Virus record (IMG/VR): IMGVR_UViG_3300046451_002161 | Location: 1 to 38,122 of that record | Length of the DNA: 38,122 nt | Source of the DNA: a virus | Direction: 5' to 3' (one strand) | Shown here: one piece after another, positions 1,782-38,119 of the stretch | Numbering within the stretch: the first letter of the stretch is position 1 | Layout: every line of letters starts with the position of its first letter | The notes under the pieces: model-generated | What the model saw: the letters and a program-made list of their open reading frames with translations, nothing else | Told to the model about the DNA's origin: nothing | Databases searched by the model: none | Made by a program: the position numbers and the translations under genes

Positions 1782-1930
1782 TTGGACTGAAGTTTTAGTA
1801 GTTTATCCTGCATTCTGATTAATCCATCTTTCAGGACATCTTTCAAAATTTGTTGGGTGGGTTTATCATCACACATTGAAATTGCTTTCGTGTATTCGAT
1901 GATCCGTTGTTTGTAGAATTCTTCGTCCAT
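1778..1930 (-). CDS. Small helical hypothetical protein (50 aa)
   Basis: A 50-codon frame from ATG 1930, too short for usual gene-finding cutoffs. It begins two bases after the TAA of the 27-residue membrane gene (TAATATG junction) and ends in an ATGA overlap with the next gene. The product (MDEEFYKQRIIEYTKAI...) is amphipathic and helical. Function unknown; the two signature junctions are the evidence that it is translated. Confidence 0.5.
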   Translation of the reverse strand: MDEEFYKQRIIEYTKAISMCDDKPTQQILKDVLKDGLIRMQDKLLKLQSK

Positions 1931-1931
1931 A

Positions 1932-2015
1932 TTATGTAACTAAATATCCAATGAGCATCATGGTAAGAATCATCAACATGATGAAACCCCAATCTGAGTA
2001 ATCTTCCCAATTCAT
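1932..2015 (-). CDS. Tiny single-pass membrane protein (27 aa)
   Basis: A 27-codon frame from ATG 2015 in an ATGA overlap with the helicase-loader stop; GAGGAGG lies about 10 bases upstream. After an acidic head (MNWEDYSDWG), residues 11-26 form a hydrophobic segment able to span a membrane. It is followed by the same TAATATG junction seen elsewhere. Such miniproteins are often missed; a role in membrane association of replication or in lysis timing is only speculation. Confidence 0.5.
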   Translation of the reverse strand: MNWEDYSDWGFIMLMILTMMLIGYLVT

Positions 2016-2737
2016 GTGAACTTAACCTCCTCTTGAAGGACAGCGTTTTTATTCATTACGATTAGCTCGCATGTCTCTCTTAATCTGAGCAGTAATGCAT
2101 TGCCACGCTCAGGATCATCAAATGCCTTTACAGCATCACTACGCTTGACCTGAGTGGTGCAAAGTAAAGGTAATTGCCTAGACATCCTTGCCTCGATGAT
2201 TTCAAACAATCCGGCTTGAGTGGTTGGACTCATTTTCTCGGAAAACAAATCATCAATTGCTAGGATTGGAACGCTTACAATTTCATCTCTCCAAGACTTA
2301 AAAAATGGACTCCGCTTGGCATCAATTAATTGGGTATGAAAGTCACCTGAGAAAAACACCTTAAATCTTCTGCCTTGCGAATGAAGTTCTTTGAGTAACA
2401 TGCAAAGCGACCTTGTCTTTCCCTGCCTCGATGCACCCATGATGTACAAACCTTTTTTGCGTAATGGAGACCATTTCATTATTTCCGGTAACATCTGCTG
2501 TGCGGAGATTGGCAATTGTGAGATTGATGATTCTCGGTATCCCATTGGGATCAAATTCTCAATTGGTTCAATGGCATGATCGACTCTCGGTAATGCCCTT
2601 TCATCTGCCTGAGCTTTCTGATGAATGGCAACACATGGATCACATACTGCTACATCGTAATTACCTCCAAATAATGGAGCATTGATAAGTTCCTCAGTCC
2701 ATCCTGATTCCTTTCCGCATTCTCTACATGGTATCAT
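2012..2737 (-). CDS. DnaC/IstB-like helicase loader ATPase
   Basis: An AAA+ ATPase of the DnaC-like type that should help load the replicative helicase at the phage origin. From ATG 2737 (241 residues) an N-terminal zinc motif has Cys 4, 7, 32 and 35; Walker A is GASRQGKT at 101-108; Walker B is ILAIDD at 158-163; a sensor-like CTTQ is near 193 and an arginine-finger-like RLRE near 218. The start was chosen because GGAGGA precedes it and it follows the upstream TAA in a TAATATG junction; the longer frame from 2881 only overlaps the previous gene. No replicative helicase is seen here, so a host helicase may be recruited. Confidence 0.85.
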   Translation of the reverse strand: MIPCRECGKESGWTEELINAPLFGGNYDVAVCDPCVAIHQKAQADERALPRVDHAIEPIENLIPMGYRESSISQLPISAQQMLPEIMKWSPLRKKGLYIMGASRQGKTRSLCMLLKELHSQGRRFKVFFSGDFHTQLIDAKRSPFFKSWRDEIVSVPILAIDDLFSEKMSPTTQAGLFEIIEARMSRQLPLLCTTQVKRSDAVKAFDDPERGNALLLRLRETCELIVMNKNAVLQEEVKFT

Positions 2738-2738
2738 A

Positions 2739-3389
2739 TTAAAAATCCTCCTCTCCAAAAGTTCCTGTTGATTCGATCTTCTTATCATCATCGAAGAATA
2801 TTCCCTGCCATCCATTTTGAACTGATCGATTGAGTGCCTTAATGATTGGCTCAACTCCATCCTTCTCCAAGATTGGATCAAATGATTTCCACATCCTTTT
2901 CATCGTAGTGGGCTTGATGGATTTCTTGAGTTCGATTCTCATCTGAACAAATTCATCCCAAGCATCTTTCAGACTATCTATATATATATCTATATCTTTA
3001 TTAATAATATTATATATTTTTAAGGTGCGCACGAAGGGTGCTGTCACTTTTGCCTGTTTTCGGGGGTTTTTGCTGTCACCCTCATTTTGACCACTTTCCC
3101 AATCGATGATTTCCGGTGCTGTCACATTTGCCCCTTTTCGGGGCTTTTTGCTGTCACATTGGAAATCAGGCTTAATTACCTCTGCTGTCACATCTGTTGT
3201 AAACTGAGGCTTTTTGCTGTCACTTTGAACATCGTTTATTTTATAAATATCGATACCCTGAATGATCAAGTGCTTGATAATTTCATTCGTAGACATCTCA
3301 TATTGATCTGAGATTGCCTCCAATTTGAGCCGGAGAAAGTCCGGTAATCTGATGGTTAATCTAGGTTTAGAATGGGACATCGTCTTCAT
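2739..3389 (-). CDS. Replication initiator-like protein with RHH N-terminus
   Basis: A 216-residue protein in three parts. Residues 8-47 look like a ribbon-helix-helix DNA-binding domain (PRLTIRLPDFLRLKLEA...STNEIIKHLI). Residues 55-120 hold three copies of a DSKxP...VTA unit whose DNA contains six iterons. Residues 143-200 match the C-terminal domain common in phage replication initiators (WDEFVQMR...GWQGIFFDD). It probably binds the iterons and recruits the downstream helicase loader, as lambda O does with P. The start may instead be ATG 3380; both overlap the end of the SSB-like gene. RHH plus initiator tail is an unusual pairing. Confidence 0.75.
   Translation of the reverse strand: MKTMSHSKPRLTIRLPDFLRLKLEAISDQYEMSTNEIIKHLIIQGIDIYKINDVQSDSKKPQFTTDVTAEVIKPDFQCDSKKPRKGANVTAPEIIDWESGQNEGDSKNPRKQAKVTAPFVRTLKIYNIINKDIDIYIDSLKDAWDEFVQMRIELKKSIKPTTMKRMWKSFDPILEKDGVEPIIKALNRSVQNGWQGIFFDDDKKIESTGTFGEEDF
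2971..3022. other. AT-rich block, candidate DNA unwinding element
   Basis: About 50 bases made almost only of A and T, with alternating TATATATA runs, directly beside the iteron array and still inside the initiator reading frame, where it codes for an Ile/Tyr/Asp/Asn/Lys-rich linker. Its position suggests the duplex-melting site of the origin. That role is inferred from layout. Confidence 0.6.
3039..3223 (-). repeat. Six GTGACAGCA iterons, candidate phage origin
   Basis: The 9-mer GTGACAGCA (minus strand) occurs six times, at 3039-3047, 3071-3079, 3117-3125, 3149-3157, 3183-3191 and 3215-3223. The copies form three pairs, each with an exact 32-base offset, close to three helical turns. In each pair one copy is read as DSK and the other as VTA, so conservation is at DNA level and not forced by protein sequence. 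An AT-rich block lies on one side. This is the arrangement of an origin inside an initiator gene, as in lambdoid phages. Confidence 0.8.
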
Positions 3390-3801
3390 CTTCTTCTTCT
3401 TCTACGAATTCAGATGGATCAGATTGAAAGTTCACAGATGTGTCCTTACCATTTCCATCATCCACCACAGATGCTGTTTCAGTTGTTGCCGGAAGATACT
3501 TAAATATCTTCTTGTATCCGGCTTTATCAATCCCTGCTTCTACTTCGATTTCCTTCCCAAAGAAAAACTCAAAAGTATGCTTGCCAACCTTGTCCCAAGA
3601 ACTTGATTCAGTACCAAGTGCCTTGAAGAATAAATCCAATTTCCATTGGCAAGATGCCATCAGGAAGAATGAATCATAAAATGTGTTTTCATCCACATTG
3701 TACATAACTGAAATAAACTTATTTCCGTTCTTCGTTAAATTAGGAGTGCCATCCTGTTTTGTGTCATAGCACCCAACTATTTTTGCTGTTTTTTTACTCA
3801 T
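3367..3801 (-). CDS. Single-stranded DNA-binding protein analogue
   Basis: A 144-residue protein from ATG 3801, directly after the exonuclease stop (TAATATG). Residues 1-100 read as a beta-rich domain with repeated aromatic residues (NTFYDSFFLMASCQWKLDLFFKALG), like phage DUF669/OB-type proteins. It ends in a strongly acidic tail finishing DDVPF, nearly the DDDIPF tip with which bacterial SSBs bind partner proteins. It would coat single strands during replication or Erf-mediated annealing. The longer start at 3825 lies inside the upstream gene and is less likely. The exact family is uncertain; the tail is the strong evidence. Confidence 0.75.
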   Translation of the reverse strand: MSKKTAKIVGCYDTKQDGTPNLTKNGNKFISVMYNVDENTFYDSFFLMASCQWKLDLFFKALGTESSSWDKVGKHTFEFFFGKEIEVEAGIDKAGYKKIFKYLPATTETASVVDDGNGKDTSVNFQSDPSEFVEEEEDEDDVPF

Positions 3802-3802
3802 A

Positions 3803-4519
3803 TTAAAATGTGTTATGCTCATCACTCATGTTGCCGAAAACATTTGCGCAACGCTCCCAAAATCTTACAACTAATTCCTTTGAACCATTGGGGTCATCCT
3901 TCTTAGCGAAGTCCAAACAAGTACCGAAATCACCTTCATTAATGTATCCAATTGCTACCGGATCAGAATACTGAGCGTGTAACCCTGCCTTGTCCTTAAT
4001 AGCATCAAAGTGACCCTCTCTAGCGTCATCAATTTTTGCCTGTCTTTTCTCAGCGTCTTTGATGTTACCAAACTTGACTGAACTTTCCTTAAACTCAGGA
4101 ATTACTTTGTGAAGTTCTGCATCCGGTTTTGGTGCTGTCTCGATATCAAAGAATACACAGCGTTCCTCCACATATGCTGAAAGGTAATTATTCATCGACC
4201 TGAAAACATTTCGAGTCTGCATCATATCATTCTCAAGATAGGATTCTTGTTGCTCGCGAGGAAGTTGGTAAAAGAATTTTCCATTACCATTCTTCCCTTC
4301 ATGCCCTGTCCACTTTGATAGGTTATCTAGCGAAACTCTAAACCCCCATTCTGAGGCTCCAAAGAACTCCATAGTATCAACCCATATGGTGGGAAGTTTT
4401 CCGAATTTCTTATTCGCCAAGTGGCTCAGAAAAACAGGGACTTTTACCTGATTCAACATTGACCAACGAATTAAATATGGAACATCGAAGTTCCGGATAT
4501 TATGTCCTACTAAATGCAT
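3803..4519 (-). CDS. DnaQ-family 3'-5' exonuclease with permuted motif order
   Basis: A 238-residue DEDDy-type exonuclease. ExoII is at residues 5-14 (GHNIRNFDVP; N7, D12) and ExoIII at 94-98 (YLEND), while ExoI, normally near the N-terminus, is at 123-130 (FFDIETAP; D125, E127). The C-terminal half (residues 121-238) is what usually precedes ExoII, and the protein starts almost exactly at ExoII. So the gene reads as a circular permutation in one uninterrupted frame. The start is firm: GGGGGA upstream and a TAATG overlap with erf. It probably trims DNA ends for Erf or proofreads. A fusion of two partial genes is the alternative. Confidence 0.8.
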   Translation of the reverse strand: MHLVGHNIRNFDVPYLIRWSMLNQVKVPVFLSHLANKKFGKLPTIWVDTMEFFGASEWGFRVSLDNLSKWTGHEGKNGNGKFFYQLPREQQESYLENDMMQTRNVFRSMNNYLSAYVEERCVFFDIETAPKPDAELHKVIPEFKESSVKFGNIKDAEKRQAKIDDAREGHFDAIKDKAGLHAQYSDPVAIGYINEGDFGTCLDFAKKDDPNGSKELVVRFWERCANVFGNMSDEHNTF

Positions 4520-5205
4520 TATTTATTCCCCCACTTTTTAACTTTATCTTTGATTTCCTGATCAGTAAATTTCAGGAAGGTATTGCAAGCCTTGATCGAA
4601 GAAGTCTCAGGATGAAACCCGATTGCTTCAGCATAACTTTGTGCTTTTAATTCTGCCAATTTTTCTAGGCAAAGCTTTCTCGTTTCTTCACCTGACAATT
4701 CTATATCCGGAATCGGTTCCGATTTTTTAACCGGAGGTTTTGGTTTTGGTTTTGGTTTTGGCTTTTCGGTGGAGTCAACCTCTCCGGCTCCATCTATATC
4801 TTCCTCACTCGCGATGCCAAAATAAGTAGTTAATTGATATCTCCTGAAATAGGTCAGGCTTGCCCCAAGTGATTGCTCAGGACTCATACCTTTTTTCTGA
4901 CTCACCTCAAATGGGAAAAATGAACTAGGTAATCTCTGACCTGATTTATGGAATAGATACAATTCAAGCATGAGTTTTGAATCATCCGTTGGTTGGATCA
5001 TTTGGATATAAGCCAACCCATATTTATTAAGAACTTTTAAGATCGTAACGACCGAAGGAAGTCCTGCGAATTTATATCCGTAGCCTTGTTCCGTTTTCCT
5101 CGGATTAACAAGCTCTGCCTGAGCTTGAGCAAAAGCAGTATAGATTTCCGCAAAAGAAATTTCAGGAGCAGGAATGCTAGGTGTTTTATTGTTTTCATCG
5201 TTCAT
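4519..5205 (-). CDS. erf: ERF-family single-strand annealing protein
   Basis: A 228-residue Erf-type recombinase that would anneal complementary single strands during phage recombination and genome circularisation. Family features are visible: GYGYKFAGLPSVV at 41-53, the SGQRLPSSFFPF strand at 88-99, and the conserved GASLTYFRRYQLTTYFGI at 114-131. A (KP)n linker at 148-158 joins a C-terminal helical part, probably for partner binding. ATG 5205 follows the TAG of the HTH gene with no gap, and the end overlaps the exonuclease gene. With that nuclease and the SSB analogue it forms a recombination cassette. Confidence 0.9.
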   Translation of the reverse strand: MNDENNKTPSIPAPEISFAEIYTAFAQAQAELVNPRKTEQGYGYKFAGLPSVVTILKVLNKYGLAYIQMIQPTDDSKLMLELYLFHKSGQRLPSSFFPFEVSQKKGMSPEQSLGASLTYFRRYQLTTYFGIASEEDIDGAGEVDSTEKPKPKPKPKPPVKKSEPIPDIELSGEETRKLCLEKLAELKAQSYAEAIGFHPETSSIKACNTFLKFTDQEIKDKVKKWGNK

Positions 5206-5385
5206 CTATTTAACTTTCGCAGGGATTTCAAATTTGTTTAAAGCCTCAAGAACTTTTTCAGGTTGGAATCTAATAATCTTACCAACTCGCAAGTATGGTA
5301 TTATTTTTTTCTTTCTGAGGTTTCCTATTGATCTTTCACAGAGTGATAGGAAATCTGCGATTTCTGCTGTAGTATATAATTTCAT
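5206..5385 (-). CDS. HTH_17/MerR-like small DNA-binding protein (excisionase-like)
   Basis: A 59-residue protein in a frame just under the usual cutoff. The sequence YTTAEIADFLSLCERSI then KKKIIPYLRVGKIIRF is the HTH_17 winged-helix pattern used by excisionases and small regulators. ATG 5385 overlaps the nuclease stop as ATGA, and TAG at 5206-5208 directly abuts the erf ATG. It lies about 500 bases downstream of the integrase, so an excisionase role is possible; control of the recombination operon is equally possible. Confidence 0.75.
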   Translation of the reverse strand: MKLYTTAEIADFLSLCERSIGNLRKKKIIPYLRVGKIIRFQPEKVLEALNKFEIPAKVK

Positions 5386-5696
5386 GGTTGTTCTAGTAGT
5401 TGTAGAAAATCTTCAAACTTCATAGTGATCAGATTTTCATGGTTGTTTTTTGTGTGAATTACGCATGGTGGTTTCCCTTTGGAATCCTTGATCGCTTGCG
5501 TAAAAGCTTTATATAAATTCAGTTTTTCGACATGCTTGCATTCGACTGAAAATGGGAAGTCAGGACATGTAATATCTGCATCTCCATTGGCTCCACAAAA
5601 TTGCTGTGAACGATGTGCAGGATATCCATTGTCGGTCAAGATGTGAGCAATCGCCCTTTCATATCTTTGACCTTTTGCTCTAGAATTAATCGGCAT
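5382..5696 (-). CDS. Hjc-like PD-(D/E)XK Holliday junction resolvase/nuclease
   Basis: A 104-residue nuclease. Residues 5-15 (SRAKGQRYERA, with E13), the GDADI segment at 38-42 and VECK at 51-54 give the E-D-ExK active-site layout of Hjc-type resolvases. The small size fits a junction-resolving or DNA-debranching enzyme acting before packaging. The start at 5696 is chosen because GGAGGAACAGCAAG directly precedes it; the longer frame to 5732 overlaps the previous gene. It ends in an ATGA overlap with the HTH gene and belongs to the recombination operon. Exact substrate not known. Confidence 0.75.
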   Translation of the reverse strand: MPINSRAKGQRYERAIAHILTDNGYPAHRSQQFCGANGDADITCPDFPFSVECKHVEKLNLYKAFTQAIKDSKGKPPCVIHTKNNHENLITMKFEDFLQLLEQP

Positions 5697-5909: not shown

Positions 5910-7079
5910 TTACACCACTAACTCATTTTTATGAGTTGTTAAATCAGAGTAGTATTTTTCACATACTGCTACTGAATTGCGGAGCGTTTTGCTTGCATGA
6001 AATATTCCATGCGTAGATGCCAATCTCGCTCCTAATATTTTCCTCAATCGATGGCATGATTTAACATCAGTTAAACCAAGATCAGTCTTGAGAAATTTTA
6101 TAAATCTTTTGTGGAGTCTTTCACCTCCGTTAATAATTTTTCCTTCCCTTGATTGGAAGTGCAAAAAGACTTGCTGACTTATGCCAACTTTTTCAACATG
6201 TCCTGTTCCCCTTAACTTCGTACCCTTTGTGGCGAACGGAAGAAAAAGAAAATGTTGACCATTAAATATTTTAAAATTGTCAGAATGAACCTGATAGATT
6301 TCTGACTTCCTGAGACCGCAACCAAATGCCAAAAGGTAAATGTCATAAAACACAGGATCAGATTCTTTTTTACCCTGAAAGAATTCTATTATTCTTTCTA
6401 CCTCAGAATCATCAGTCGAAAATGGTTGGGAGACTACACTCTGTGCAATAAAGGAAACAAAATTACCAAAGTGCTTTGTCTCCCAACCCCTCCGTTTGAA
6501 CAACAAAAGATTTTTGCGACTGAATAAAGATTTTATCTGCCTGAGCTTATGAGGAAGATTGTAAATTTCTTCCCATCTCTCCGGCAAGGTTCTCCCCTCA
6601 TCATCCTCGGTTAAAAGGTAATGAGTGGATTCTTGTAAAGAAATCCCTTCCCTCCCACAAAGATCAATAATGTGACTGACATTTTTTTTCCTAGTATCGA
6701 GATTTCCACCGCACCTGTTATTGCAGTCCAAAATCCATGCAAGTAGAAACTCAAGAGTTATTACATTATTTAACTCTTGTATCTTCTTAGTCACTATCCT
6801 CTTTACATCAGACTCTGTAAGTTCGGTTAAGGAGCAATTCAGTGGAATACGAAACTGCTCCTGTTTATGAATAAACTTTAAGGAGACTTTTTGAGAGGAT
6901 AAGTTGACTACTATATCAACTAATTGGGGCAGAAAATTGATTAGGAACTCAAAATTATATATTTGCGAGCCTGAATTTATCTCTTTTTTCCCTTGCAAGA
7001 AAGTGGAGGCGCGGGTGAGAATCGAACTCACGATAGAGGATTTGCAGTCCACGGGTCGCTCTGTATAAATAGGTCTCAT
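5910..7079 (-). CDS. int: Tyrosine recombinase (phage integrase)
   Basis: A 389-codon frame for a tyrosine site-specific recombinase that integrates the phage at a host tRNA-Cys gene. Catalytic candidates: R257 in FGCGLRKSE, K285 in the beta-hairpin, H343 and R346 in CHRLRK, and Y376/Y377 in CEKYYS; the usual LGH histidine is replaced (LRNS). The first 26 codons are the tRNA-derived attP read in frame, and ATG 7079 is the only methionine codon in the whole frame. The folded protein probably begins near residue 40, so GTG or TTG starts inside or after attP are possible. No good Shine-Dalgarno sequence precedes 7079. Confidence 0.88.
   Translation of the reverse strand: MRPIYTERPVDCKSSIVSSILTRASTFLQGKKEINSGSQIYNFEFLINFLPQLVDIVVNLSSQKVSLKFIHKQEQFRIPLNCSLTELTESDVKRIVTKKIQELNNVITLEFLLAWILDCNNRCGGNLDTRKKNVSHIIDLCGREGISLQESTHYLLTEDDEGRTLPERWEEIYNLPHKLRQIKSLFSRKNLLLFKRRGWETKHFGNFVSFIAQSVVSQPFSTDDSEVERIIEFFQGKKESDPVFYDIYLLAFGCGLRKSEIYQVHSDNFKIFNGQHFLFLPFATKGTKLRGTGHVEKVGISQQVFLHFQSREGKIINGGERLHKRFIKFLKTDLGLTDVKSCHRLRKILGARLASTHGIFHASKTLRNSVAVCEKYYSDLTTHKNELVV
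7004..7063 (-). other. attP core: 3' part of tRNA-Cys(GCA)
   Basis: On the minus strand 7050-7004 reads as the 3' half of a cysteine tRNA: anticodon GCA at 7045-7043 in loop CTGCAAA, a perfect T stem (GTGAG/CTCAC) around TTCGATT, an acceptor strand ending CGCGCC, the tRNA-Cys discriminator T, then CCA. Weaker D-arm-like similarity reaches 7063. No 5' acceptor strand precedes it, so this is not a complete tRNA gene. One mismatch in the anticodon stem suggests identity with the host starts near 7050. Phages that integrate into tRNA genes carry exactly such a 3' fragment. Confidence 0.85.
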
Positions 7080-8696: not shown

Positions 8697-8960
8697 TTAG
8701 TTTGATTTAAATGGTGCTTGGAATCCGTGACGCAAATCTGCCCCTATTTCATTGTCATCAGTCACATGATACCATAATTTTCTAAACTCAGGTATTTGTG
8801 AACAAGGATCGACTTTGATAATTTGTAAATCTTCAACGACTCTATGTCGATTTTTGGAAATCCAATTTAATGCAGATTTACTCCTTCTAAATACCGGTGA
8901 GTGAATAAATTTTTTAACTCCTATGAAGAATATTTGGTATTGTGCAGTTGTGTAGCTCAT
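8697..8960 (-). CDS. Hypothetical basic protein (87 aa)
   Basis: An 87-residue protein, basic and aromatic (YQIFFIGVKKFIHSPVFRR), with a polar C-terminus. The start follows a GGAAATTAATAAAATG leader, one of a set of three. It begins 4 bases after the previous gene, so the two are surely cotranscribed. Function unknown. Confidence 0.55.
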   Translation of the reverse strand: MSYTTAQYQIFFIGVKKFIHSPVFRRSKSALNWISKNRHRVVEDLQIIKVDPCSQIPEFRKLWYHVTDDNEIGADLRHGFQAPFKSN

Positions 8961-8964
8961 TTTA

Positions 8965-9195
8965 TTAATTTCCTAGTGCGTTCTGTTGTTCGTCAGTAAG
9001 TTCAATTTCATATTCTGCAACTACCCACTCAAATGTCGATTTATCTTCATCAGATAAGCTAGTTAAGAAATCACGATCCACATCTTCGATGGGTAAGACT
9101 TCGCTTAAAAGGTCAGGTAATCCATCTGAAAGTAAGGCTCCAATTTCGTAGCCTTGAATGAATGTTCCGGTTGATTTTAGTATTAATGTGTCCAT
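8965..9195 (-). CDS. Hypothetical acidic protein (76 aa)
   Basis: A 76-residue, very acidic protein (many Asp/Glu across residues 25-70), first gene after promoter copy A2. No clear Shine-Dalgarno sequence. Its overall charge is compatible with a DNA-mimic type inhibitor, but no family is recognised and the idea is untested. Confidence 0.55.
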   Translation of the reverse strand: MDTLILKSTGTFIQGYEIGALLSDGLPDLLSEVLPIEDVDRDFLTSLSDEDKSTFEWVVAEYEIELTDEQQNALGN

Positions 9196-9216
9196 GTTTA
9201 CAATCTAGGTTATTAT

Positions 9217-9254
9217 AATATAAAAAGCAAGATATACTTTTGTCATAAAGATTT
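9217..9254 (-). promoter_or_regulatory. Sigma70-like promoter, copy A2
   Basis: Minus strand: ATGACA (9246-9241), 18-base spacer, -10 TATATT (9222-9217). Shares a 35-base identical block with 8374-8408. It lies between two accessory genes and should serve the gene starting at 9195. Confidence 0.65.
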
Positions 9255-9273
9255 GTTATCTTAGTTTCCTTTC

Positions 9274-9507
9274 TTAGTTCAATTCTAAATACCAAGTCAC
9301 ATCATACTCGGTATTATCCTCGATTCCGCACCAAATATCTCGGATAACTTCTCGAACCGCAGGGTGAGTTATTAGATCACAAACTCCATGATCAGTAAAC
9401 TCGGAGGGCGAGTCAATAAGACCATCTTCGATCATTCCGTTAATGTGAATAACCACTCCGTTAGCACTCGGTTTGTGGAAGATGAATAATGCGTTTTCTT
9501 TGCTCAT
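9274..9507 (-). CDS. Hypothetical acidic protein (77 aa)
   Basis: A 77-residue acidic protein with a beta-like beginning (ALFIFHKPSANGVVIHINGM) and a Trp-containing acidic end. The leader AGGAAACTAATAAAATG is shared with the genes at 8684 and 8960. No domain recognised. Confidence 0.55.
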   Translation of the reverse strand: MSKENALFIFHKPSANGVVIHINGMIEDGLIDSPSEFTDHGVCDLITHPAVREVIRDIWCGIEDNTEYDVTWYLELN

Positions 9508-9527
9508 TTTATTAGTTTCCTTTTTTT

Positions 9528-10292
9528 TTAGTTTTCGTATTTAATTTCAGTCAAATCGGATGGTTTCCAATTCGCAATGATTGGTTGCCAATTTAGCAAT
9601 ATAGCACCTAGTTCTCTTGATGCCTGAGCGTTGGATACCTTATGCTCAACCTTAACATATCTTAATGGTCTGCTCACAAGCTTTTCTGTGAAGTAAGTGT
9701 ACGCAGTTTCTTCCGGTTCATCATTCAAGAACTCAAGATATTTTTTGTGTTGGCGAGAAAAGTAAGACTTCAAGAAATCAACTGACACATTAATTGGTAA
9801 TTCACCTGACCCTGCACATGACCCTGTGAAGTATCCGGTGTTTTTGTAAGTGTAACCATGCTCGGCAAGGAGTCCGGTTTTTACATCAACCTTATGAGAC
9901 TTACCACAGATTTGGCAAACACCTCTGTGAGTAGCTGAACGCTCAGTTCTATTACCCTCTGACTTCTCTACCTTTGGTTTCTTGACGATAGGTAAAGATT
10001 TGATGTAGTCCCTTGCTGTAACTAATCCCCTGACCTGATTGGCATCGATACCACAAACCTCAAACCAAGCATAATGTTTTTCTCGAACCTGATGTGGGTA
10101 GGATGGTAATCCCCAATAAATTTCTGTGAGTTGATCGTAACGATCACCTGAGCGTAATTTATGGGACTCATCATTTAAGATAAACTTGTGTGCCTGTCCA
10201 CGAAGTATTTCGTACTGACGAGTAACAGCATCAAGTGCTTCCTTCTGAGAGGCTTTAGAATGGTAGTGAGTAGGTAATGTTTCGTTGTTCAT
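9528..10292 (-). CDS. Zinc-motif hypothetical protein (254 aa)
   Basis: A 254-residue protein, the largest in the accessory block. Residues 124-162 hold CQIC, then H145 in EHGYTY and C159 in GSCAGSG, a pattern seen in phage proteins that probably bind one zinc ion through Cys126, Cys129, His145 and Cys159. Before it lies a helical region, after it a region rich in aromatic residues. Start 10292 is chosen because it follows the promoter-like repeat and shares the ATGAACAACGAAA context with the gene at 11192; the longer frame to 10367 would cross the promoter. Function unknown; nucleic-acid binding is plausible. Confidence 0.65.
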   Translation of the reverse strand: MNNETLPTHYHSKASQKEALDAVTRQYEILRGQAHKFILNDESHKLRSGDRYDQLTEIYWGLPSYPHQVREKHYAWFEVCGIDANQVRGLVTARDYIKSLPIVKKPKVEKSEGNRTERSATHRGVCQICGKSHKVDVKTGLLAEHGYTYKNTGYFTGSCAGSGELPINVSVDFLKSYFSRQHKKYLEFLNDEPEETAYTYFTEKLVSRPLRYVKVEHKVSNAQASRELGAILLNWQPIIANWKPSDLTEIKYEN

Positions 10293-10311
10293 AAGTATCA
10301 GTATGTTTATT

Positions 10312-10360
10312 ATTATATAAAAAGCAAGAACTAAAAAAAGGGAGTCCGTGTCATAAAGAT
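10312..10360 (-). promoter_or_regulatory. Promoter-like repeat, copy B1
   Basis: Minus strand: -10 TATAAT at 10317-10312, preceded by the CTTGCTTTTTAT block common to the A copies and, further upstream, by a TTTATGACACGGACTCC block (10357-10341) identical to 11256-11240. The -35 is unclear because the TTTATGACA block lies about 31 bases from the -10, so it may be an operator instead. Confidence 0.5.
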
Positions 10361-10584
10361 TATCCAATCAGGAGTACTCCACGATCTAGAGTGGCTACAA
10401 TCTTGCCATTCTCATTGACCCATGCATCTTCAGCTTCCTGAAATTTATTATCTAATATCTCAGCGTTCTCACAAACTTCCTGTGCCTGTGCCTTGGTAAT
10501 TTTCAATGGGTATCCCCCTCCGATATCTATAGTAGTTACTAACTCGATTACCTTAGTCTTACGAATTGCTGTTCTTAATTTCAT
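10360..10584 (-). CDS. Hypothetical protein (74 aa)
   Basis: A 74-residue protein: basic N-terminus, GGGYPLKITKAQAQEVCENA helix start, and a beta-like end. ATG 10584 overlaps the upstream 39-residue gene as ATGA. No family recognised. Confidence 0.55.
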   Translation of the reverse strand: MKLRTAIRKTKVIELVTTIDIGGGYPLKITKAQAQEVCENAEILDNKFQEAEDAWVNENGKIVATLDRGVLLIG

Positions 10585-10700
10585 GTTAACCCTAGTGCCT
10601 CTTTTTTAGTTGTGTAAGTAGCTACATAATGTTGCGCCCCTACTTCGATGCGATAGACATCATATGTGCCTACTGAGTTTTTTATAATGGTGAAGTTCAT
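10581..10700 (-). CDS. Small hypothetical protein (39 aa)
   Basis: A 39-codon frame joined to both neighbours by ATGA overlaps (starts at 10700, stop TGA 10581-10583). The sequence MNFTIIKNSVGTYDVYRIEV followed by YVATYTTKKEALG reads as a small beta-beta-alpha unit. It is too short for usual cutoffs but fits the operon perfectly. Function unknown. Confidence 0.55.
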   Translation of the reverse strand: MNFTIIKNSVGTYDVYRIEVGAQHYVATYTTKKEALGLT

Positions 10701-10876
10701 CTTGTGTATTCTTGTTTTATTTTAATGATCTCGATCAACTCATCTTTTTCATCTTGGTGTAGACCATCAATCAGGAAAGCTAAGTTTTCCGTAAATTCGA
10801 TACACTTGCCATCACCCCATGATTGCGTAGTGTTTGCGTTAGCGATAAGTTTCTCTAGTAGTTCGTGAATGTTCAT
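10697..10876 (-). CDS. Small acidic helical protein (59 aa)
   Basis: A 59-residue protein from ATG 10876 (MNIHELLEKLIANANTTQSW), chosen since the longer frame to 11008 lies inside the upstream gene and reads as noise. The end overlaps the next start as ATGA. Helical and acidic; no family recognised. Confidence 0.55.
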   Translation of the reverse strand: MNIHELLEKLIANANTTQSWGDGKCIEFTENLAFLIDGLHQDEKDELIEIIKIKQEYTR

Positions 10877-11373: not shown

Positions 11374-11634
11374 TTATTCCTCATCATTTTCTTCTCCACC
11401 ATTTCCGGACATTGCACCACCAAACATCATCATTGCTTTCGCGTATGCAGGATGAAGGATAGGAATATCATACTCCCTTGAAGTAGATGTTTTCTTCTCC
11501 TTCAAGATTGGTTTCTTTGATTTCTTCGATTGGCTTTCCGTAGGCATCTTGGACGAATCTTGTTCGCCTTGTTTTTTGTTGTTTAGGTAGTCGTTCATTT
11601 TTTTCAGTATATTTGGGTCTGCCCATGAAGTCAT
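11374..11634 (-). CDS. Small protein overlapping the end of the giant gene out of frame
   Basis: An 86-residue frame from ATG 11634 (other starts at 11682 TTG, 11646, 11598). It overlaps the last 167 bases of the 2913-residue gene in the +1 frame. The N-terminal half is Lys/Ser-rich; the end (DIPILHPAYAKAMMMFGGAM then Glu/Asp) looks like real protein, and its terminus carries the Shine-Dalgarno sequence for the next gene. No strong ribosome-binding site precedes any start, so expression may need re-initiation or a frameshift. Function unknown. Confidence 0.5.
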   Translation of the reverse strand: MTSWADPNILKKMNDYLNNKKQGEQDSSKMPTESQSKKSKKPILKEKKTSTSREYDIPILHPAYAKAMMMFGGAMSGNGGEENDEE

Positions 11635-14600
11635 CAACAAAAGCATCTCGGTCTGCCGAAGTCGCAGGGAACTTTCCGGCAATTGCTAATTCACCTAGAA
11701 TATCAAAACTAGAATGACCGACAGCTTCCTTCTTGATCATATTCCAAGTGACCCAATGCATAGCAAATGCTGAGTCGATCCAAGCGTAATCCTGTCGCTT
11801 CTTGCCCACCTGTTTTGCTAGATCAGAAAACATATATTCTAGAGTCCGGTACATAGCATGTTCAACAGGATCATCCAATTGCGATCCGATAGTTTTATAG
11901 TATCCTGATCGATCTTCCGGTACACCTTTGGCATCCACTCGATATGGACTGACTCCGAATTTTACATATTCTTTTTTCTGCTTCTCAGCAAAATCCTTAG
12001 CACTCTTCGATGCTTCCGGATCAGCGAGAATTTCATTTACTTTTTGCAGTCTGTTTTGCACAGCACCTTGAATCTGATGCTCCCATACATTTACAAATTG
12101 CCATCTGTCCATGATAACCACATTTGGGTCTGCCATTAAAGCAATAACAAATGATGTAACCTTGTCTTTCACTCCGGCTCCAAGGAAACCATTAGACCAC
12201 ATCTTCTCGCGGATTTGCTGACCATTTAAACTCTTATCATTAAAGATGCCTGTGAGTTCTTTCCATCTGCCATTCCATTTCACAAGCATGTCATGGATTG
12301 CCTGAATATTTTGCTTGGCATTATTTCCTGCTGAGACCGGACTCTTCTGATCGTTGAACATGTTGGCAACAATGTCGGTAAATGTATCCGGTTGATCGTA
12401 GATATTTCTTCGTTCAGCTTCAGAAGCGAAGGCAACCCTTTCCTTTTTAGGTAACTTTTTAATTCTAGATTCGATATAAGCTTTCTTTTGTTTGCCAATT
12501 GCTGTGATTTTTTCCTTAGCCTTATCAACCCTTTTCTTTTCTTTTTTCTTTAACTGATTTACAATTCTAGTTCTTAACTTATTAAGCTTTGCCTTTGGCA
12601 CTTCCAATTTTAAAGCTTCGATATATAAACTACTAGATTCTGCAACTGATCTGAAATCAATTTTAGGTTCAATATCTAATTGCATCTCTGCAATTTTTAC
12701 ATCGAAATCCTTGTACCCTTTTTGAGTCCTCCAACCATCACCATATTTCTCATCTGCGATTGAGGACATATCGTAAAATGTACCTTTCTCCATTTCATAA
12801 TTTCCATCAATCGATTGGAAAATCGCATTCCACATAGGCTTATAATTTGTTGTCCTAAGCCACCCTGCTTCCTGATTATAGGGATCAAGCATCCGGCTCA
12901 GTAAACCCCATATAAAACTCTGTGCGATCATCTCCGGTGGCTTGACTATCTTGTGCAATGCTGTGGCACTCTGATAACCCTCCTTAGCTAACTCAATGAA
13001 CTCAGGGTTGGTTGCCATCGTGCTGTCCAACCAATCCACTAACTGATCAATGTTATTTACATAATCTAAGAATTTTGTAGGTGGAGCAGGTATTTCAAAA
13101 CTACTGACAGAATTTAATCTGAGTTGATGAATCTTCTCCCAATTTTCAGGAGTCGCATAACGCTTGCCTAACTTTTTCATCATGGCATCCGCGAGTGCAT
13201 TGTCTGCAAAGTATTGATCCCAATGTGACTGAGTCCAATTCTTAGAATTTTTTGTTAAACCAATCTCAGTTTTTTCATTATCGTAACTGAGCATTGGGAA
13301 ATTCATTTTCGTGTCCTTTGACATTACCTCGCTTGGAACGCTTGGCATAAAGTTCAAAGAATTGATCATGGAATTTCTTACTTCATCTGATATCTGTCCA
13401 CTATCAGATTCAATGCTCTCGTGGCGAACGATTCCCTTGTTTCTCCATCTCGCATTTGCAAAGGCAAGAGCATTTTCAGGTGCTTGTCCTCGGACTTCCT
13501 CGGTGCTGATTGGGAAATTTTCAGGTACTGAGAGTTCCCCATCTTTTCTTGTTTTAATTTCGGTTTGCGTTTCGATATCATAGATTGAATCTTGGTCACC
13601 CCATATTGCCATTCGCACAGCATCAAGGTAGTTATTAACAGGGAATGCAACATCGAGCATAAAGCCTCGTTGATCGCTTAACCATCCCCCTAAGTGAGCG
13701 CCATCTTTTTTGAAACGATGGGCATGAGTTTTGATATAATTCCATAATGCAGTCCGGTTCATTTCTTGACTCGGAATAATAAACTCAGTTTCTTTTTCCG
13801 GAGCTACAACATATCCGGTTTTAGCATGAATAAGATTGCTCTGATCAATTGTAAAACCATAGGGATTTTTCCGCATGTCAACAATCAGGTCATCGAAATG
13901 TTGGGCGGTATCATCAGTCAACATAGTGTATGGCATCGCGAGAATTGAACCCTCATTAGAGAATGTAAATTCCTGTCTCTTTAAGTCACCCTCGTCTCCC
14001 CAAATTTTAGCCTGTGCGTTAGCGTCAACAACCGCATAAGTTCGACCCCCATACTCCTCATGCATTCTAAATAAATCAAATCCATGTTTCTTATGTAAAT
14101 ATGTATTGATTGAATTATCTGTCGTTTTTGATGGGTCACTAATATTTGTTTCTATGCTCGAAGGACTTTCAAATAAATTCCAATTTACTCCACTTTCGTG
14201 GTATCCTTGCATCACGATTTCTTCCATTGCTTTTGGTGGAAGATTTGCAAGTGCATCAGACTCCTCTCTACGACTTTCAATAAATGCCTTGTTTATTTTT
14301 TCAGTAAAACTTTTATCAGTAATACTTTCCAAAAACCTTCCTTCAGGAGTATCTAATCTTCCTGTTCCATCGTTCAAAACTTTATCACCTTCAAATAATT
14401 TCGTGAGGTAAGAAACTAGATTGGGTAATCTTGTTTTTTTGTATCTAGAACTAGGAGAATGATTTCTCCACTTCCAAATTATTGAGTCAATAACATCAGG
14501 CAAATTTACTCCATTAAAAGAAGTTCCAATATATTGTTGCCTATCTTCAAGTGGCATATCTCTCCACCACTCACTAATTAAATTTTGATGCATGGGATTA

Positions 14601-17600
14601 TCTGTATCCCACATTTTCTTACCCTTGATAACAAAAGTTGATTCATTATTTTTAGGAGACATATTAGAACCTCGCCCAACCCTTTCCTGCCTGTCGGTAA
14701 AGAACGCTTGGATCGAACCATATCGATGTGTCTGATCTCCGATTTCTTCATTGAAATTTCCACGCTCTGTCATTCTTTCAGAATGCCCATGTATTAAAAC
14801 GATTGGTTCAGCAGAATCTTTTTGTGTCAATAATCCACCCTGATGCCACTCTTTAAAATATTTACTATTGTAACCTTTCTCTTGAAATTCTTTGTCAGCA
14901 TCCATTAGAAGATCGATGTCCGCTCGGCTCATTTTGGTCACATCCATATCAAGCTTGCCATCTTTTACTCCGGCGCTCCACGAAGGTTCCGGCATGAAAT
15001 GTATTTGGCTTGCTTGCTCTCTTTTAAAATCACGCAAATGATAAGCATCAAAAACGACAAACTCAGATGAGTGATCAATATAGGAACCATACATATTGGT
15101 GGGTGATTCCTGTCCATGAATTCCGGCTAAACCAAGGATATGATTTACTACAAGAAATGGCTCGCTGTTCTTTTTAAAATCAAATGATTTATCTAGATGA
15201 ATTGTTTTTTGTTTTTCGGGATTATATATATTAACTAATCCGTGATATAAAGTAATAGCATTATTTTCATTCCACTCCGGAAGGATATTAATTGACTCAA
15301 TCTCTTTACCATTGAATGGGTCAATGAAATTTGTTTTATTCTTAGTGTAAAACCGATTCCAAACTTGAGCTAAACTTTGCTCCTGCCCTTTTATTCTTGA
15401 ATCAAATAATTTATCTAACTTATTAATTATATCCGGATGCTGTGTGTTTATAGAATTGTGACTTTTAAGAAATTCATTATCAGGGAGTTTCTCAAAACTA
15501 TAAATATTCTCTCCATAATTTTCTGTATCAGATGGTTCCACATGACCATAATACCCTAAACCTAAGAACCCTGAATTGCCTGTCGTTTGCCCAACTTTTT
15601 TTAAATCAGGATACTGATACTCAGAAGCAGAACCATGATAAATTCGTTCTCCAAATTTTCTTTTCCCATTCTTACCCAAAAGGTTTTTAGGAGGTAATGG
15701 AATAGTGTAAGTGATTCCATTTTCTTGAAAGGTTGGTAACTCAGGTAGGAAAAATAACGAGTCATCCAATTTTCTTCTTTGGTAAGTTTCGTTATTTGTT
15801 TTTAAATTATGCGCGCCCCTACGGATGGCAAAAGACGAATTTTCCTCAACTGCTCTTTTAATAGTATTAGTAATTATCGCCCTTTTAAAAGTTGTCTCAC
15901 CCACTCCCTCCTCCAACCCACCATAATTGAGTAAGTATTTAACTAACCCAAAACGCTTTTCACCCTCAACCTTCCTCATAAGCGGATGAATTAAATGATC
16001 ATTCTGTGGGTCACTATACCACTTAATTGTCTCATCCCTTGTTGCTTTTGCTTTAGGAAAAATTTGATATTCTTTCCTTACATCACTTTTAGGACGATGA
16101 TCAATTGCCATGAAATTTCCGGTATCAAAATCATATCGAAATGCATCGAGTAGATTGAAATAAACCGACTCACCTTCCCCATCTACCTTCCCTGCAGGAT
16201 TTAAATCTTCTAGATCGAATACCAAATCAGGTGAAATAGAAGAACTATGGACTTCTTGAATTTTCATGCGCACCTCATCTCTTTCTCGCAAGGCAAATGC
16301 TGTGATGAGCCGGACATATGAATCTGAATTAATATCGTTAGTTAATATTTGATCGTCATCATAATATTGATTGAATGAATAATTGCTTAATTCATTCGCA
16401 CCATACGCACCATCACCTTTTTTTTTGTGAAAAGTTATGTGGTTTTTATTTTTACTTTTTAAGAGTTGGGATAATCGCGCTGATGCAGTTCTCAAATCAT
16501 TTACGCTTGATAAATCCATGTGAACTATTGGTATACCTACCTTATCTGAAAAATCATACAACGCTTGATAGATTTTCTTGCCGGAAAAAACACTTGTGTT
16601 ATCCAACTTCCCCATTCCCATTTTGCCTAGATTTGAAGTGTCAAGCCTAATTATGAATGGTGGTTGGGGGAGGGTGATTTTAGCGTCTTGGTAAACTTGT
16701 TTCATTATGTTTACACTAAAACTTGCAGTACCCTTGTTGCCAAGTATGTGTTGGTTTTCAGTATTATCATCCTTTATTTTGTATCGTACTCCATATGCTT
16801 CATCATCATCTTCTTTCCATAAAAGCTCAGGTGTTACCGAAATTCCACTATAATCGGATAAAACATTTTCAAGTTCCAATCCCAAATTGTCTAATTGTTG
16901 TTTTCGAGTTTGGGTTCCGCTTTCGTTGTCTTGTAAAGATTTAAAGTCAAGTTTTTGATTAGCAAAAATATCTTCATTACCCTTAGTCGCTCCAATTAAA
17001 AACGACCCTATGCGATCAACCTGATCTCTTTGATTTTCATGTGGGTTTAATGCCCACTCAATTAACGACTCATTTAAACTCTCACCCTCTATATTAAAAT
17101 CAGACTCAGGGTCTTGAAGTATGGTCTCTATTTCCTTATTCGTGTACTGATCAAAAGCAGATGGCAGAGCAATAAAACCATCGGTCTGTCTTTGGGTAAC
17201 ATACTTTTTCTTTTTAGGAGGTATAGTAGACTGATTACTACCATCACCACTCAACATTGGCATGTAGTTAAATTTTGCATTTTTGTAATCGTAGGCATAC
17301 CCATCCCTGTTTTGTGAACTAAGTCCTGCGAGTGCTGAAATATCGTAGGACTTGAATGCGTTCTTCATTTTATTTCTTTCGGGATCGGAGAACCATTCAT
17401 TTCGTGCAGGATCAATAATTCGCTCACCTGATTCTTTCATCCCCATAGCCATGGTAAACAATTCATTCTCTCCATGACCTAGCGGATTGATCCTTCCCTC
17501 ATCACCAACTTCAGTTAAAACATTTTGAGCATGTTGTGCAAAAGCTTGCTTGAAATCACTTACACTTTGACCATCGGGAAGCAATCCTGCATGTGCCATA

Positions 17601-37575: not shown

Positions 37576-37853
37576 TTTTTAGCTTCCTCTATTTTAGCTT
37601 TTAAATTACTAATCGCCTCAACTCGTCCACTCGCGTGACTAAGCTTGTTTGTGGTTAATTCATTATCTGAGACCTCATTGATCGCGTCCAAAAGTTCAAA
37701 ATCTATTATTGTATCCAAAGCTTGCCACAACCTTGAGTTCTCGCCTTGCTCGGCAAGAATTTTACGGCACTCATCTTGTGACATAGGATCAGGATATTTA
37801 ACTAAATAAACCTTACACCTAAAGAGGTTTAAAAGTTTTTCAATAATTCTCAT
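37539..37853 (-). CDS. Hypothetical protein (104 aa)
   Basis: A 104-residue protein with an amphipathic N-terminus (MRIIEKLLNLFRCKVYLVKYP), a helical centre and an end (HASGRVEAISNLKAKIEEAK) like small helical proteins often found after portal genes. ATGA overlap at 37853. Probably head-related from position; function unknown. Confidence 0.5.
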   Translation of the reverse strand: MRIIEKLLNLFRCKVYLVKYPDPMSQDECRKILAEQGENSRLWQALDTIIDFELLDAINEVSDNELTTNKLSHASGRVEAISNLKAKIEEAKKWRSGKMNYKTN

Positions 37854-38119
37854 TGCTGTTGAACTGACTTGACCCCAACTCGTCCGATTTGAGCATTTTC
37901 CTTTTGTGCAATGCCAAATTGTAAATATTTAATTCTGTTTTCAGCGAGTTGTTTAACTAATGGTTTTTCTGCCATTTTCTGCTGTAACTCTTCACTAGAC
38001 TGAATTATTTGTTCAGCAGTTTGTTTGCGAAGTTCAAAATTCACTCCTTCTTTAGCCATTGGCTCAATTCCGCTCATAATGCGAACCCACGATAATTGCT
38101 CATCATCGACCTCCTTCAT
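37850..38119 (-). CDS. Hypothetical helical protein (89 aa) at window edge
   Basis: An 89-residue Gln/Lys/Glu-rich helical protein ending QQQ. ATG 38119 overlaps a TGA in another frame (ATGA), which is how most junctions here look, so the start is probably 38119 and the upstream gene ends there; the frame is, however, also open to the edge. A stretch AAGGAGG (38116-38110) just inside the gene is a chance or internal ribosome site. No family recognised. Confidence 0.5.
   Translation of the reverse strand: MKEVDDEQLSWVRIMSGIEPMAKEGVNFELRKQTAEQIIQSSEELQQKMAEKPLVKQLAENRIKYLQFGIAQKENAQIGRVGVKSVQQQ

Follow-up and report, generated by a model that had tools for sequence, protein, structure and literature searches.

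Gene Neighborhood of the Locus

The window, i.e., the whole stretch of DNA analysed here, comprises the entire virus record IMGVR_UViG_3300046451_002161 with a length of 38,122 bases. Nearly all of its long genes are located on the minus strand, and a major head protein is encoded (phrog_1328, E=9.1e-34). A portal-like gene is truncated at the right end, while the portal body and a terminase are absent, so that the record probably represents only part of a genome of 43-44 kb, the size found for relatives. In the relative L016, a portal-like protein is encoded at 8704-10824, and its C-terminal end is matched by the final minus-strand open reading frame of the window (37850-38119).

In gene direction, the replication block comprises genes for an Erf-like annealing protein and an exonuclease-like product, followed by a small gene for a product with an acidic tail and a C-terminal DDVPF tip, the initiator gene and a DnaC/IstB-type ATPase (Table 1). 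The latter assignment is in line with the original prediction, which had named the gene following the initiator as a helicase loader. The DDVPF tip of the small upstream product suggests a single-strand DNA-binding protein; phrog and Pfam searches gave no SSB profile match for it.

Table 1. Location of genes and DNA elements of the replication locus in the window.
Feature	Position	Strand	Basis
Helicase-loader gene, DnaC/IstB-type AAA+ ATPase	2012..2737	-	phrog_50 E=1.1e-10; Pfam IstB E=9.8e-07
Initiator gene (213 aa) for a protein with ribbon-helix-helix-like head, linker encoded by the iterons, beta hairpin encoded by the AT block, and C-terminal domain of O-like type	2739..3380	-	
C-terminal domain, with one hairpin and three helices predicted	2802..3014	-	phrog_678 E=3e-09; pLDDT about 82-90
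AT-rich block, predicted melting site, encodes KIYNIINKDIDIYI hairpin	2975..3022	.	composition, model
GC-rich element TCGTGCGCACCT, located between the iterons and the AT block	3023..3034	-	DNA conserved in relatives, two frames
Iteron 6, VTA, 32 nt past iteron 5	3039..3047	-	9-mer count, frame reading
Iteron 5, DSK	3071..3079	-	9-mer count, frame reading
Iteron 4, VTA, 32 nt past iteron 3	3117..3125	-	9-mer count, frame reading
Iteron 3, DSK	3149..3157	-	9-mer count, frame reading
Iteron 2, VTA, 32 nt past iteron 1	3183..3191	-	9-mer count, frame reading
Iteron 1 GTGACAGCA, DSK	3215..3223	-	9-mer count, frame reading
Head, residues 1-45, predicted DNA-binding part; strand RLTIRLP, then two helices	3246..3380	-	
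Small upstream gene, acidic tail, C-terminal DDVPF tip	3367..3801	-	ORF list, profile searches

Neither the initiator nor an alignment of the loader, used as queries against 84,980 species genomes, yielded a relative, and hence no host and no prophage was obtained. Among annotated phages, matches to the initiator were weak and restricted to the C-terminal part, with the queries L027 and L042 giving none. A tyrosine-recombinase-like gene in the window (5910-7079; Phage_integrase E=0.0029, below cut-off) also occurs upstream of the replication block in L020 (91-1104) and L023 (35-922); it is retained in relatives, yet the genome collection contained no prophage. Besides, an open reading frame of 2913 residues (11468-20209) had no Pfam match at E 0.01, an Rfam search of positions 1900-5500 remained without match, and the GC skew was uninformative, showing no turn at the iteron locus in a record with nearly all genes on one strand.

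Iteron Array and AT-Rich Block

The 9-mer GTGACAGCA occurs six times in the record, always on the minus strand and within 185 nt (3039-3223; starts in Table 1), compared to 0.21 expected copies; six copies were reached in none of 100 dinucleotide shuffles. No other 9-mer of the record is clustered as densely; six copies lie within 300 nt, vs. at most three for every other 9-mer. The concern that this sequence might be common elsewhere in the genome was dispelled by the same count, as all six copies belong to the array. In gene direction, the steps between the sites are 32, 34, 32, 46, and 32 nt, resulting in the predicted three pairs with an offset of exactly 32 nt. The codon frame alternates along the array and, as the original prediction had read it, each pair is translated first as DSK and then as VTA. 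Furthermore, 20,000 synonymous recodings of the window initiator contained a maximum of three copies of any 9-mer. Since the 9-mer is read in two frames and recodings cannot reproduce the array, selection for a repeated peptide is not the explanation; the repeat is neither due to chance nor to repeat selection at the protein level. Reading in two frames is, still, nothing special, as the four iterons of lambda (J02459), which likewise occupy several frames of gene O, lie in frames 0, 2, 2, and 1.

The neighboring block had been described as consisting entirely of A and T. It adjoins the iterons and, at 2979-3023, has the highest AT content of any 45-mer in the record, but with 43 of 45 positions it is not purely AT. 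On the plus strand, the linker region contains a terminator-like hairpin (GCCCCTTTTCGGGGC, 3130-3144) with a T run; relatives do not keep it, and it was not taken as a terminator.

Conservation of the Array as DNA

For a comparison among relatives, an 8-bp core of the iterons was defined in the present analysis, as were the class labels A to I used below. Two close relatives, L007 and L008 (85-86% identical protein), keep all six sites including their steps, and the partial contig L009 keeps the four sites within its span. Far more diverged proteins with about 43-45% identity (L010, L016, and L020) are encoded by genes with six TGACAGCA cores at the same five steps. L010 and L016 are near-identical copies, both of which feature an insertion of 13 residues between the head and the first site with the steps remaining unchanged. 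L034 represents the same contig as L010, and L031 the same contig as L020. All five complete class A genes thereby share six cores and five identical steps. Searching whole records for the TGACAGCA core revealed the array and one to four scattered copies in each of the six records.

The third codon positions illustrate that it is the DNA which has been kept. In comparison to the window, 18 of 18 third positions within the iterons are the same in L031, in contrast to 77 of 174 in the remaining gene, and the respective values for L034 are 17 of 18 and 83 of 174, so that agreement outside the iterons amounts to 44-48%. The frame argument against protein repeat selection, as put forward originally, is therefore sound. 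The further claim of a 32-nt step placing paired sites on one face of the helix applies to class A (five of five complete genes) and does not extend to the other classes, which mostly feature 12-nt steps.

A pattern search for paired iterons returned eight contigs, three of which (L011, L014, and L015) encode no initiator around the match and were dropped as unrelated. Close-packed, intergenic TGACAGCA clusters lie in two of these unrelated contigs, again with no initiator gene around them (L015, 6226-6320; L011, 3069-3109).

A Family of Initiator Genes With Nine Iteron Classes

With the loader as query, 21 loci were obtained, and a wider scan gave 22, nearly all on the same contigs. An open frame is present upstream of the loader in 20 of the 21 loci, and in all 20 the initiator gene directly precedes the loader. 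The aligned set includes 16 relatives and the window (17 members). Left out were the partial L009, the duplicates L028 and L035, L041, the contig of which starts inside the loader, and L026, the frame of which is broken. In the latter (3291-3973), the break is located inside the linker and the iteron array is complete; L027 and L043 are intact.

Throughout the family, the gene consists of a short head, a variable linker, an AT-coded stretch rich in Tyr, Ile, and Asn, and a C-terminal domain. Repeats between head and AT block were found in all 18 genes examined and belong to nine classes: class A with TGACAGCA (window, L007, L008, L034, and L031), class B with TGATACCA occurring in either orientation (L027 and the frame-broken L026), class C with TAGTACTA (L043), class D with TGAGGTCA (L030, L033, and L036), class E with TGGCCCCA (L037 and L039), class F around TGATATCA (L038 and L040), class G with a degenerate TGATACCA (L032), class H with CACCAAATC (L029), and class I with AGATATCT (L042). 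Classes F and H are less regular than the remaining ones.

In 16 of 17 initiator genes, compared to none of 14 control genes from the same contigs, exact 8-mer repeats were more numerous than in synonymous recodings. The observed number was reached by none of 1000 recodings in fourteen initiator genes, by two in L033 and by 18 in L036. L032 failed, with all 1000 recodings reaching the observed number. The positive control lambda O failed as well, since it reaches three repeats, as do 229 of 1000 recodings; the test is thus insensitive to degenerate iterons and the miss of L032 means little.

The geometry of the array proved more stable than its sequence. L026 and L043 possess eleven sites each with steps of 12, 12, 33, 12, 21, 12, 54, 12, 12, and 12 nt (one step being 13 in L026), while all eleven sites differ, featuring TGATACCA or its complement in the former vs. 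TAGTACTA in the latter. Likewise, L033 (class D) and L039 (class E) differ in six of six sites with steps of 12, 12, 36, 12, and 12 nt in both. The spacing can thus persist through a change of every site. With two mismatches allowed, L032 follows the common geometry (11, 12, 35, 11, and 12 nt) and L042 has steps of 14, 11, 36, 13, and 12 nt, such lists containing chance sites, e.g., one extra in the window and in L034.

Two flanking elements accompany the iterons. In most members, a GC-rich element, TCGCGCGCACCT or a near variant, lies between iterons and AT block. It mostly encodes SRAP, but LART in L042 and VRT in L007, L008, and the window; being read in different frames, it is, after the iterons, another DNA element independent of the frame. 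For most members, the AT block is richer in AT than synonymous recodings, the difference being marginal in L032 (56 of 1000 recodings) and L034 (46 of 1000), and not significant in L031 (412 of 1000).

These results bear on the possibility that the repeat is only a by-product of peptide repetition within a disordered linker, the DNA itself having no role. Such an origin would be compatible with the low confidence of the linker in the structure model and with the four-residue peptide repeats (SGIT, GPTH) which the iterons also encode in several relatives. It is nevertheless largely refuted by the two reading frames of the 9-mer, by the occurrence of the class B repeat in both orientations and by the failure of synonymous recoding to reproduce the repeats, and spacing survives even a full change of the peptide. 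We accord it next to no probability.

Domains of the Initiator Protein

The head of the initiator is likely, rather than proven, to be a ribbon-helix-helix fold of the Arc/CopG type, judging from weak matches together with the co-variation with the iterons described below. A weak match to the Arc-like phrog_582 was obtained for the window (E=0.0011) and for five of 17 members at E<=0.01; Pfam RHH_5 appeared below the cut-off in two of 17 members (E 0.026 or worse). The AlphaFold2 model calculated from the 17 sequences (mean pLDDT 61) predicts the C-terminal part well and features helices at residues 13-26 and 30-40, while the linker is of low confidence and the strand of the head is not formed in the monomer (pLDDT about 70). 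The top Foldseek matches of the head were VapB, CopG on DNA, and Arc, all with E>1 (best 2.7); the comparison with CopG-DNA reached a TMt of 0.77 across 39 columns, but an E of 3.2. VIA-align rows covering residues 3-42 were mostly ribbon-helix-helix proteins with Z 2.3-3.8.

In 12 of 17 members, a match to phrog_678 (annotated as 'replication initiation O-like') was obtained for the C-terminal domain, which presumably serves as the contact to the helicase loader or the helicase. The window protein aligns to this profile only from position 155, whereas lambda O covers positions 4-216 (E=1.7e-35). A comparison of the family profile with lambda O gave no significant match for either the head or the C-terminal domain, and the only link of the latter to lambda O is therefore indirect, through phrog_678. 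The same C-terminal domain is found behind other heads, with the loader gene next, in gp46 of the Pseudomonas phage Hali and in contig L066. Being O-like and also combined with other heads, it marks an O-like initiator which here carries a different DNA-binding head. The originally proposed lambdoid origin hence holds for the layout, comprising iterons inside the gene, the AT block, and the loader as next gene; as the head looks like a ribbon-helix-helix fold, the initiator is not lambda O.

Co-Variation of Head and Iterons

The iterons appear to track the head. The C-terminal domains of L039 and L040 are 99% identical, while their heads share 31% and their iterons belong to classes E and F. 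At the DNA level, identity is 42-60% over about 240 nt of head and iterons and 97% immediately after, with 83-98% on most sides flanking the changed block. The pair L037/L038 follows the same pattern. As head and iterons adjoin, one recombination event might transfer the two together even in the absence of a functional link. The near-identical heads with different classes seem more telling than this block exchange. L033 and L039 have heads of 87% identity and different iterons, and the centre of the predicted strand, where contact to DNA is expected, changes from T to N (KLTLRLP to KLNLRLP); L027 and L043, with 74% identical heads and again different iterons, change from T to V (KVTLRLP to KTVLRLP). 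Conversely, RLTI is retained in each of the five heads of class A, the identity of which drops as low as 42%. Further head differences, six in L033/L039 and twelve or so in L027/L043, imply that a link of the central residue to the class may be due to chance.

The co-variation would fit binding of DNA by a head dimer through its strand. For the ribbon-helix-helix protein AmrZ, base contacts of Lys18, Val20, and Arg22 at matching spacing are described in PMC3325190, and this K-x-V-x-R spacing is also present in the head of L043.

A true origin could, however, also be bound at its iterons by a host protein or another phage protein, with the head travelling along by adjacency. The joint exchanges in L039/L040 and L037/L038 are explicable in this way. 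The differing central strand residues in L033/L039 and L027/L043, as well as its retention in class A heads of 42% identity, would answer this objection in part; moreover, a host protein would not account for the existence of nine classes, of which four occur in a single metagenome. Recognition of the iterons by such a third protein is accordingly most improbable.

Predicted Function as Replication Origin

Taken together, it is highly probable that 2975-3223 is a replication origin located within its initiator gene. As reconstructed from sequence and model, replication would start in this segment by loading of dimers of the ribbon-helix-helix head on the six TGACAGCA iterons, and the resulting complex might bend or wrap the array. 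The AT block would open by strain and by capture of a single strand. The C-terminal domain, tethered by the iteron-encoded linker, could recruit the loader encoded by the next gene and pass the opened strand to it, whereupon the loader would load the host helicase, as in lambda. For lambda, layout and unwinding are outlined in PMC7466680. A linker which tolerates change allows the DNA to evolve within the gene, and the Rep protein of pSK41 is an earlier example in which a linker encoded by the origin is dispensable (PMC5703833).

Two further functions of a repeat array next to a ribbon-helix-helix protein have to be weighed. Known proteins of this fold are mostly repressors, and the repeats might be operators by which a regulator, rather than an initiator, controls its own operon; a plasmid antitoxin of this fold even represses replication via origin iterons, according to PMC7848731. 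The location of the sites in the middle of a gene, away from a promoter, argues against autoregulation. Between 2700 and 3500, there is a single promoter-like site, which lies on the opposite strand (3424-3452), and shuffles give more such sites. Additionally, the O-like C-terminal domain and the helicase loader next door do not suit a regulator, which renders operators very unlikely. Alternatively, an extrachromosomal prophage might be partitioned by a plasmid-type centromere with a ribbon-helix-helix ParB and parS heptads. ParB of pSM19035 is such a protein and binds 7-bp WATCACW repeats (PMC9499535), resembling TATCACC of the class B iterons. Still, a match to ParA or ParM is absent among the 20 window proteins scanned against Pfam (a subset of the ORFs), the neighboring ATPase is DnaC/IstB-like, and a partition site needs no AT block at a fixed position. 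A centromere is exceedingly improbable, and the origin within the initiator gene is the reading preferred here.

Relation to Known Systems and Implications

An in-gene origin of the lambda type is textbook knowledge. Gene O of lambda and Stx phages resembles the initiator gene of the window in carrying its iterons mid-gene beside an AT block and in being followed by the loader gene (PMC7466680). Lambda O differs in its head, which is not homologous, and in a C-terminal domain without direct match; its iterons measure 18 bp compared to about 8 bp in steps of 12 or 32 nt in the window family, the loader of which is DnaC-like. Likewise, phrog_678 shares the C-terminal part, but features a lambda O-type N-terminal part which is absent from the window protein. 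In the Rep proteins of pSK41-type staphylococcal plasmids, the origin boxes in rep also encode the linker between the DNA-binding and the C-terminal domain; these differ by a RepA_N head, the plasmid context and a contact to primase rather than a loader gene (PMC5703833). Arc, CopG, AmrZ, and omega/ParB of pSM19035 possess a strand-helix-helix head like the one predicted here, but act as repressors, activators, and partition proteins without a fused initiator C-terminal domain. Hali gp46 and the distant contig L066 share the C-terminal domain (hhalign E 1.2e-09 and 1.1e-08) and the loader gene, whereas the head of gp46 belongs to the phrog_22470 'replication protein' by profile and that of L066 is another one.

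In searches of open-licence PMC papers, none of the titles or abstracts listed described a phage initiator with a ribbon-helix-helix head, and concerted switching of head and iterons was likewise not found. There is about an even chance that a ribbon-helix-helix head replaced the winged helix of an O-like initiator and that specificity switches via the strand residues and every iteron with the geometry being kept. The head of an O-like initiator would then be exchangeable for an unrelated fold. How an initiator and all of its sites change specificity jointly, given that a mismatch would block replication, is an open question in origin evolution. For this, the family offers paired states which share their geometry and differ little in the protein, in a size suitable for in vitro work, with heads differing in few residues in one class pair. 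If true, the aligned set would represent a natural recognition code for the ribbon-helix-helix fold, and the family may supply mutually independent phage origins. Co-occurring relatives would, moreover, be selected for mutually blind origins, similar to plasmid incompatibility groups. In the metagenome 3300046168, four contigs (L029, L037, L026, and L043) feature four different iteron classes, which suggests, without proving it, selection against cross-recognition.
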